A stretch of DNA of 56,158 nt from Elusimicrobia bacterium GWA2_51_34. Its GTDB lineage: Bacteria > Elusimicrobiota > Elusimicrobia > Elusimicrobiales > UBA9959. Position 1 is the first letter of the stretch. Every line of letters begins with the position of its first letter. Below are positions 39,611 to 47,192 of the stretch, one piece after another. The position numbers and the translations under genes were made by a program. The stretch lies in the NCBI GenBank assembly GCA_001799565.1, contig MGTS01000032.1, forward strand, positions 1 to 56,158, in the 5' to 3' direction. The notes beneath the pieces were generated by a model. The model was not told the origin of the DNA, did not search any database, and saw only the letters and a program-made list of their open reading frames with translations.

Positions 39611-39727
39611 TTTGCCGTAAGCCATAGGCCGTAAGCAGAAAAGTTGTATAAAGTTTATCACGAGGGTAACAGTGCTGCAAGGAATTCCTTACAGGCTTAC
39701 AGCCTATGGCTTAAGGCTTATGGCAAC
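39611..39727. repeat. Intergenic palindrome with GCCGTAA/GCCATAG-type tandem arms
   Basis: The left arm (39611-39637) is a tandem of GCCGTAA, GCCATAG and GCCGTAAG. The right arm (39689-39727) is its reverse complement in the same degenerate form (GGCTTACA, GCCTATG, GGCTTAAG, GCTTATGG). The loop includes AAGGAATTCCTT. It lies upstream of the OPT gene and borders the tRNA-Val repeat units. Confidence 0.75.
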
Positions 39728-39736
39728 AGTAAATTT

Positions 39737-39895
39737 TGGTGCGCGGTACAGGATTTGGCCACAAGTTCCGGTTTCGCCGTCGCTCAACCGGACTCGCGGC
39801 CCCGGCTCCCGGACTCGCAAGCTTGCTCGTCATCGGTCCGCCTTTCAAATCCTGACGCGAGTCAAGCAGTTGACTCGCTTACCGCCTATAAAAAT
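39737..39895 (-). repeat. tRNA-Val 3'-end-bounded repeat unit 1
   Basis: The first 21 nt (39737-39757) equal the 3' end of the tRNA-Val gene (CCA, acceptor strand and half the T arm) on the minus strand. The unit continues with a hairpin, TCCGGTT / AACCGGA, around a 12-nt loop (39767-39792), a GCAAGCTTGC palindrome, and a hairpin, GCGAGTCA / TGACTCGC, around AGCAGT (39857-39878). A TTTCAAATCCTG stretch (near 39843) can pair with CAGGATTTG at the unit start, closing the whole unit into one long fold. Confidence 0.85.
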
Positions 39896-40056
39896 TGGTG
39901 CGCGGTACAGGATTTGGTCACGGGTTCCGTGTTCGCCGTCGCTCACACGGCCCCGCGACCCCGGCTCCCGGACTCGCAAGCTTGCTCGTCATCGGTCCGC
40001 CTTTCAAATCCTGACGCAGGCCAAGCAGTTGGCCTGCTTACCTCGCCTGTGAAAAT
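39896..40056 (-). repeat. tRNA-Val 3'-end-bounded repeat unit 2
   Basis: Second tandem copy, again starting with the tRNA-Val 3' 21-mer (39896-39916) and directly adjoining the functional tRNA gene. Stems differ from unit 1 but pair within themselves: CCGTGT / ACACGG around the identical 12-nt loop (39927-39950), and GCAGGCCA / TGGCCTGC around the identical AGCAGT loop (40016-40037). Loops are conserved and stems vary in a compensated way, which indicates selection for structure. Confidence 0.85.
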
Positions 40057-40131
40057 TGGTGCGCGGTACAGGATTTGAACCTGTGGCATCCTCTGTGTAA
40101 GAGAGGCGCTCTACCGCTGAGCTAACCGCGC
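40057..40131 (-). tRNA. tRNA-Val(UAC)
   Basis: A 75-nt tRNA on the minus strand. The acceptor GCGCGGT pairs with ACCGCGC, with discriminator A and encoded CCA (40059-40057). The D arm is TTAGCTCAGCGGTAGAGCG. The anticodon stem CCTCT/AGAGG encloses CTTACAC, anticodon TAC. The T arm is CAGGTTCAAATCCTG. Its 3' end is repeated twice more downstream (39896 and 39737). Confidence 0.97.
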
Positions 40132-40256
40132 GGTAATGTCAGATATTCTACCAATAGAAAGGGGGGGGCTCCAAATGTTTAAATTATGGCGGGGTAAATG
40201 GCCTGGCTTCACAGGGCGCAGGCCGGTGCGGGGTAAAGGCTTGGCGAGACACTACA

Positions 40257-47004: not shown

Positions 47005-47114
47005 GGGCCCAAAGGCCTATCCGCGGCTAGGTCCTTTGGCCCTTGGAGCTCTAATTTTTATCAAGTATGATACGTTTAGATCAGTCACCATGTAATCCCC
47101 GGAATTGGCCGGGG
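47005..47114 (+). terminator. Two hairpins between the FecR gene and the metallo-beta-lactamase-fold gene
   Basis: The first stem is GGGCCCAAAGG (47005-47015) / CCTTTGGCCC (47033-47042) with one bulge. The second is CCCCGG (47097-47102) / CCGGGG (47109-47114) with a 6-nt loop. Neither has a clear T tract. They separate the FecR transcript from the gene starting at 47193, and no gene is seen in this gap. Confidence 0.55.
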
Positions 47115-47192
47115 AGTATCCACCTCCGGACCTTAATCTGGATTCGCCATGGAGATCGGCAGCGACAAAGATTAAGTTTTTGAGATGGATTC

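Follow-up and report, generated by a model that had tools for sequence, protein, structure and literature searches.

Tandem units that copy the 3' end of their host tRNA gene, a probable novel type of structured mobile element associated with tRNAs in Elusimicrobiota and Patescibacteria

Two tandem units behind tRNA-Val(UAC)

The window analysed here is the whole of contig MGTS01000032.1, 56,158 nucleotides (nt) from Elusimicrobia bacterium GWA2_51_34 (assembly GCA_001799565.1), and our subject is a pair of tandem units lying directly behind its minus-strand gene for tRNA-Val(UAC). We conclude that they most likely represent a novel type of structured mobile element linked to tRNAs, in a family that appears to be undescribed. 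Read in the direction of the tRNA, the units measure 161 and then 159 nt and are 88% alike over 154 nt (Table 1). The last 21 nt of the tRNA, C56 to A76, recur once in each unit; an initial annotation of the window had described these two recurrences as opening units of 159 and 161 nt, and the coordinates agree.

The same annotation had pointed to two hairpins with identical loops and stems changed on both sides, and both are present in sequence and predicted fold. In hairpin P0 the loop ACTGCT is constant between the units and the stem changes from GCAGGCCA/TGGCCTGC to GCGAGTCA/TGACTCGC; in hairpin P3 the loop GAGCGACGGCGA is constant and CCGTGT/ACACGG becomes CCGGTT/AACCGG. A third compensated stem, missing from that account, reads GGTCGCGGG/CCCGTGACC in one unit and GGCCGCGAG/CTTGTGGCC in the other. 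The arms credited with closing the whole unit can indeed do so (CAGGATTTG/CAAATCCTG), and pairing continues along the acceptor strand, with GGCGAGGTA and GGCGGTA opposite TACCGCGC. The closing complementarity covers the entire tRNA 3' end: an acceptor-complementary part comes first, P0 interrupts it, and a T-arm-complementary part follows. The predicted fold of the whole unit is very stable, at about -72 to -89 kcal/mol. A hammerhead-like core (TGATGA...GAAA) seen by eye was dropped, because its letters are not conserved between units.

Table 1. Features of the tRNA-Val(UAC) locus in window coordinates
Feature	Position	Strand	Basis
Host gene tRNA-Val(UAC), complete, CCA encoded	40057..40131	-	ARAGORN; Rfam RF00005, 73.9 bits
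Unit 1, 161 nt, begins one base past the tRNA and closes with the second tRNA 3' copy	39896..40056	-	R1 match 39896-40047, 168.6 bits
Unit 1 acceptor guide GCGAGGTA (P1a), inverted copy of the tRNA acceptor 3' strand	40039..40046	-	Sequence, fold, alignment
Unit 1 hairpin P0, GCAGGCCA ACTGCT TGGCCTGC, placed where T-stem and acceptor meet in the inverted copy	40016..40037	-	Sequence, fold, nine-unit alignment
Unit 1 T-arm guide CAGGATTTG (P1b), inverted copy of tRNA 56-64	40005..40013	-	Sequence, fold, joint analysis
Unit 1 hairpin P2, GGA/GA and tandem GA internal loops	39963..40001	-	Fold, covariation
Unit 1 hairpin P3, conserved G-U pair, loop GAGCGACGGCGA; final base is C56 of the tail	39916..39960	-	Fold, covariation, strand bias
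Unit 1 tail, direct copy of tRNA-Val C56-A76	39896..39916	-	Sequence
Unit 2, 159 nt, tandem	39737..39895	-	R1 match 39737-39888, 171.9 bits
Unit 2 acceptor guide GGCGGTA	39880..39886	-	Sequence, fold
Unit 2 hairpin P0, GCGAGTCA ACTGCT TGACTCGC	39857..39878	-	Sequence, fold, nine-unit alignment
Unit 2 T-arm guide CAGGATTTG	39846..39854	-	Sequence, fold
Unit 2 hairpin P2	39804..39842	-	Fold, nine-unit alignment
Unit 2 hairpin P3	39757..39801	-	Fold, nine-unit alignment
Unit 2 tail, direct copy of tRNA-Val C56-A76	39737..39757	-	Sequence

The only open reading frames across the units are small antisense ones, and the units contain no conserved gene; these frames (126-144 amino acids, plus strand, 39644-40078) are likely to end up annotated as spurious proteins. 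Immediately downstream of unit 2, 39614-39717 holds an inverted repeat, GCCGTAAGCCATAGGC..., whose motif of about 47 base pairs (bp) matches many places in this and related genomes, forming a second dispersed repeat family. Further away, a complete 2dG-II purine riboswitch aptamer (76.1 bits) lies on the plus strand at 47085-47155.

A family at the ends of tRNA genes in two phyla

In the window's genome (G000; other G numbers denote further genomes) the unit also stands behind the genes for tRNA-Met, Arg(UCU), Glu, Ser, Tyr and Leu, with a truncated copy at Arg(UCG), and the intact units end in the 3' end of their own host tRNA. When nine units of this genome were aligned under a hand-drawn structure, 95.3% of cells held standard pairs and 35 of 53 pairs showed two-sided changes; none of 500 shuffles reached the same, and slid controls were only 32-44% paired. 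With related units at other tRNAs of the genome and an alignment that beats its controls, the observation in the window is far beyond chance. A covariance model of the unit, R1, finds 17 matches here at E≤1. Two arrangements are of interest in themselves: L025 (G000:C31:6311-6470) consists of two tandem mini-units reduced to the fold-back stem and P0, from which P2 and P3 are gone exactly at the T-loop (GGATTCGAATCC) and which terminator repeats adjoin, and in L013 (G000:C18 86176-86657) the array that follows tRNA-Arg(UCU) is rearranged, includes a partial unit in inverted orientation and has the tail for a third time about 470 nt downstream.

The family reaches well beyond this genome, and stem differences in the copies found elsewhere are compensated as well. 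R1 has matches in 32 of 41 relatives and, at E≤1e-6, in 133 of 341 Elusimicrobiota genomes, mostly of the window's order. A search of a named genome collection with the core DNA pattern returned Elusimicrobia genomes together with many Patescibacteria, and R1 confirmed these with up to 131 bits; 19 genomes of this search hold 1 to 25 units each, the maximum in a Patescibacteria genome of 0.8 Mb. In the phylum of G350, counted here under Patescibacteria, 33 of 287 sampled genomes have at least one unit at E≤1e-6. Units are abundant in genomes of 0.5-0.8 Mb, and among the stretches of one Parcubacteria genome that were analysed, the majority of tRNAs have at least one behind them. Some Patescibacteria units have no P0: their inverted copy is unbroken, and tRNA positions 56-76, a terminator hairpin and the guide make up one fold-back. 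Pattern matches in Hymenobacter and Sphingomonas were discarded as chance, having no covariance-model match, and a match in Hydrogenedentota (L224), where the tRNA-Val is Elusimicrobia-like, probably comes from a mis-binned contig. Phage and plasmid collections gave no unit match, and IMG/VR gave a single contig with a unit. In G002, a fluoride riboswitch (L060, 861-921) lies closely downstream of the unit behind tRNA-Val(CAC).

Among 176 full-length units, 148 have a same-strand tRNA within 420 nt upstream. For 128 of them the tRNA stands directly in front, with 36 anticodons and 18 amino acids represented, and the orientation is in every case that of the tRNA. The initial annotation had suggested looking for other tRNA genes followed by the unit with their own 3' ends, and this is what the family displays: a tail with at most 2 of 17 nt off matches the unit's own tRNA in 79 of 128 cases, against 52 of 2560 comparisons with other tRNAs, and a T-arm guide with at most 1 of 10 nt off does so in 90 of 128, against 116 of 2560. 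The joints are exact. The direct copy starts at C56 in all 68 perfect tails and ends between 3 nt before and 120 nt beyond the annotated tRNA end (-3 to +120), and the complementarity of the guide stops precisely at T54 in 94 of the 95 guides with an exact 8-nt match. Since T54-T55 is universal, the AA could be part of the body; both arms would then end at C56. Each unit carries the 3' end of its host tRNA twice, directly and inverted, the inverted copy usually being split by a hairpin. Many copies are without a tail or without an acceptor guide. Between tRNA and unit the gap is at most 22 nt for 66 units, about half; 62 gaps are longer, 56 of which hold a stable, usually terminator-like hairpin.

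Two explanations of a simpler kind can be judged on these data. If a single tRNA tail had simply been duplicated in tandem, as at E. coli tyrT, with nothing mobile involved, the two units of the window and the perfect tandem pairs seen in other genomes would be accounted for; one body at tRNAs of 36 anticodons in two phyla refutes this as a complete explanation, and we give it next to no weight. Alternatively, the unit could be a miniature tRNA-integrating island, placed by a tyrosine integrase, with the repeat from T-loop to 3' end as attL/attR and the body as a remnant. The direct repeats, which are 18 to more than 40 nt long, start in the T-loop and run beyond the tRNA end, are what such an island would leave, and tyrosine recombinases occur in 40 of the 41 relatives. 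However, an integrase usually serves one site, whereas matching ends are found here at 36 different anticodons, and the units include an inverted copy of the tRNA end, which to our knowledge integrases do not make. Nor did a larger parent element come to light: distant second copies of the tRNA end (L153, L210, L012, L013), followed up in search of an autonomous version, enclose no common gene. We consider this origin highly improbable.

Which stems bear the mark of selection

Covariation in the two window units had been taken as evidence of selected structure. For the closing stem P1 this does not hold, because both of its strands copy one tRNA, and covariation follows from the formation of the unit. 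At 86 of the 92 positions where tail and tRNA are discordant, the guide sides with the tRNA, and at 2 it sides with the tail; P1a has a G-U:A-C ratio of 71:70, the equality expected without strand-specific selection. The inner hairpins behave differently. The ratio is 67:9 in P0 and P2 together and 281:18 in P3, or 31:13 when two conserved G-U pairs are left out. It is the inner hairpins alone, then, that give evidence of selected structure. Their strand bias, together with a core consensus common to two phyla, leads us to conclude that the body is a selected, folded strand of tRNA sense, be it RNA or single-stranded DNA. The body displays both covariation beyond phylogeny and a sense-strand G-U bias, as a structured RNA would. 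In tail-less copies P0, P2 and P3 still have 99, 96 and 91% paired cells, a count that decayed bodies could escape if the model misses them.

Template switching can create and maintain hairpins without any selection (PMC8794818), and a local artefact of this kind, in which slippage and fold-back at tRNA hairpins create and correct palindromes and so produce apparent compensation (PMC8794818), deserves to be weighed at this point. It fits the guide well: the guide follows the adjacent tRNA and not the tail, the P1a counts are symmetric, and the gap hairpin often sits on the palindrome axis. Template switching may be what keeps guide and tRNA alike. It does not predict a specific body consensus common to two phyla, and a strong G-U bias of the sense strand is not what palindrome correction by itself produces. 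The artefact is a probable explanation of the guide, though not of the body, and an improbable one of the unit. The family is nevertheless a good system for separating selection on a folded strand from mutational correction of palindromes, since every unit has an internal control in one of its stems.

Turnover, origin and relation to known systems

The distribution of copies speaks of turnover and spread, not of simple inheritance. At the locus of tRNA-Val(UAC) and the neighbouring transporter gene, G000 has two units, G001, G002 and G003 have one each, and G013 has one with a decayed tail; the orthologous site is empty in four relatives (G004, G005, G010, G015). The site behind tRNA-Val(CAC) is empty in G000 and filled in G002 and G004, with a common upstream flank and a downstream flank that is not shared. 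Near-identical bodies occur at different tRNAs (0.93 between the G000 Met and G002 Val(CAC) units, 0.98 between those at Gly(GCC) and Gly(CCC) in G022), and bodies at the same isoacceptor in different genomes are often less alike than bodies at different tRNAs. Copy number runs from 0 to 16 within one genus and from 0 to 16-18 within one order. Variants include truncated copies, mini-units without P2 and P3, and copies of a 'type 2', in which a fragment of the tRNA 3' end lies on the 5' side only. The 'type 2' copies L065 and L066 (G002) and L071 and L072 (G001) are intergenic, with no detectable tRNA gene and no tail; their fragment is preceded by CTGTGCAGTGCGGGCGGGG, which is likewise confined to the 5' side.

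The suggestion of a tRNA-targeting mobile unit is well supported: the unit follows many tRNAs with their own 3' ends, orthologous sites are filled in some genomes and empty in others, and different tRNAs can have similar bodies. Its second half, that the unit restores the tRNA end at each insertion, has to be refined: the tRNA's own 3' end remains intact, and insertion adds a second direct copy together with an inverted one. On balance, and with modest confidence, we favour the view that the units are an undescribed family of small, non-coding, non-autonomous mobile elements that home to the tRNA T-loop and are inserted by a fold-back process. The element measures about 110-160 nt, with the body consensus AAAGSCGGAGCG-P2-GCGAGSCGGGGTCGC-P3-GTGAC, usually accompanied by P0. 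The wider claim is possible, and we advance it tentatively: that this is a new class of mobile element, common to Elusimicrobiota and Patescibacteria, which has no protein gene and consists of nothing but a structured RNA or single-stranded DNA, and which can use the universally conserved T-loop of any tRNA and, when it inserts, writes direct and inverted copies of that tRNA's end around itself.

But what if the units are kept because they are useful? The main rival, also raised in the initial annotation, is a processed trailer RNA: read-through of the tRNA would free a structured RNA whose acceptor/T-arm helix resembles that of a tRNA and whose 3' end is CCA, and this RNA would act in tRNA maturation or regulation. 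Selection of inner stems and conserved G-U pairs on the tRNA-sense strand agrees with this, as do the body structure retained after loss of the tail, the very stable fold, the constant orientation and the abundance in genomes of 0.5-0.8 Mb. On the other hand, a terminator-like hairpin separates about half of the units from their tRNA, many copies are without tail or acceptor guide, P1a has no strand bias, orthologous sites are often empty, and copy number varies widely within one order and even one genus. We judge the trailer unlikely; what keeps it a serious rival is that the body folds preferentially on the sense strand.

How might an element of the kind we favour insert itself? The data show the anatomy, the exact joints, the host-tRNA specificity, presence and absence at orthologous sites, the spread of bodies among tRNAs and the sense-strand selection of inner hairpins; the steps that could connect them are as follows. 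The body would act as a folded single strand of tRNA sense, recognised by a host or element factor that the scheme requires. At a break or template switch in the T-loop of a tRNA gene, it would bridge both strands of the tRNA 3' end like a hairpin cap and so become joined to that end, from C56 onward, in both orientations. Replication would then give inverted copy, body and direct copy beside a tRNA that stays complete, a single fold-back event producing both copies of the end, and tandem copies may arise afterwards by recombination.

Several points weigh against this scenario. A single fold-back step does not explain P0 within the inverted arm. No copy has been caught transposing, in a set that offers no closely related strains for comparison. 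The families searched (Y1, reverse transcriptase and tyrosine recombinase) yielded no mobilising protein, and unit content is unassociated with any of them across the 41 relatives: Y1 transposase (PF01797) occurs in 23 and is absent from the unit-rich G028, G030, G031, G032, G034 and G035; RVT_1 occurs in 13 and is absent from the window's genome, G030, G031, G032 and G035; tyrosine recombinases are present with or without units. The body structure kept after tail loss could equally reflect a cellular RNA function in place, and a tool-based fit favours the modelled structure and misses decayed copies.

If our reading is right, a non-coding element that had escaped notice has settled at the ends of a large proportion of its carriers' tRNA genes in two little-studied phyla, ultra-small Patescibacteria genomes included. 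It would offer a tractable example of site-specific mobility where the element takes up the target's own sequence both directly and inverted, and it would affect genome annotation through spurious antisense frames and false second tRNA ends.

Finally, we would like to place the units beside systems already described. That no known family comes to mind, as first remarked, is borne out by Rfam, which at gathering thresholds gave no relevant match beyond the tRNA for units in the window and at ten further loci, and at E≤10 gave only the tRNA and chance matches over 39700-40160. Literature searches, with thin coverage of subscription journals, returned no description of such a family. REP/BIME sequences mobilised with RAYT (cf. 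PMC3733652) are likewise small, non-coding, non-autonomous hairpin repeats with many intergenic copies, whereas the present units target the tRNA T-loop, have arms that copy the host tRNA and are numerous in genomes without Y1 transposase. With IS200/IS605-type elements they share a hairpin and a short guide complementary to the target, single-strand specific, but they have no linked Y1 gene, and their complementarity, itself copied from the host site, extends over T-arm and acceptor. Short interspersed elements derived from tRNA are also short non-coding repeats containing tRNA sequence; the present units differ in being bacterial, in that a reverse transcriptase need not be present, and in that the tRNA part is always that of the host site. 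As in tRNA-integrated islands, a direct repeat of the tRNA 3' part flanks the insert and the tRNA is intact, but the units are of about 150 bp, contain no integrase, have ends that fit any host tRNA and carry an inverted copy. Explanations by REP/RAYT, retroelement or integrase each leave at least one tested feature unaccounted for.

There is also a likeness to the 3' repeats of E. coli tyrT and their rtT RNA (RF00391), known at one locus, where units of about 160-180 bp stand in tandem and the tRNA 3' end concludes every one. The window's tandem units, each closing with the 3' end of the tRNA that precedes them, repeat this pattern. RF00391 itself has no match at gathering score in the window or the ten further loci, nor at E≤10 in 39700-40160. 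Unlike the tyrT repeats, the present units are not confined to tRNA-Tyr but occur at 36 anticodons for 18 amino acids, and they combine an inverted copy of the host tRNA with a conserved multi-hairpin body found in two phyla.
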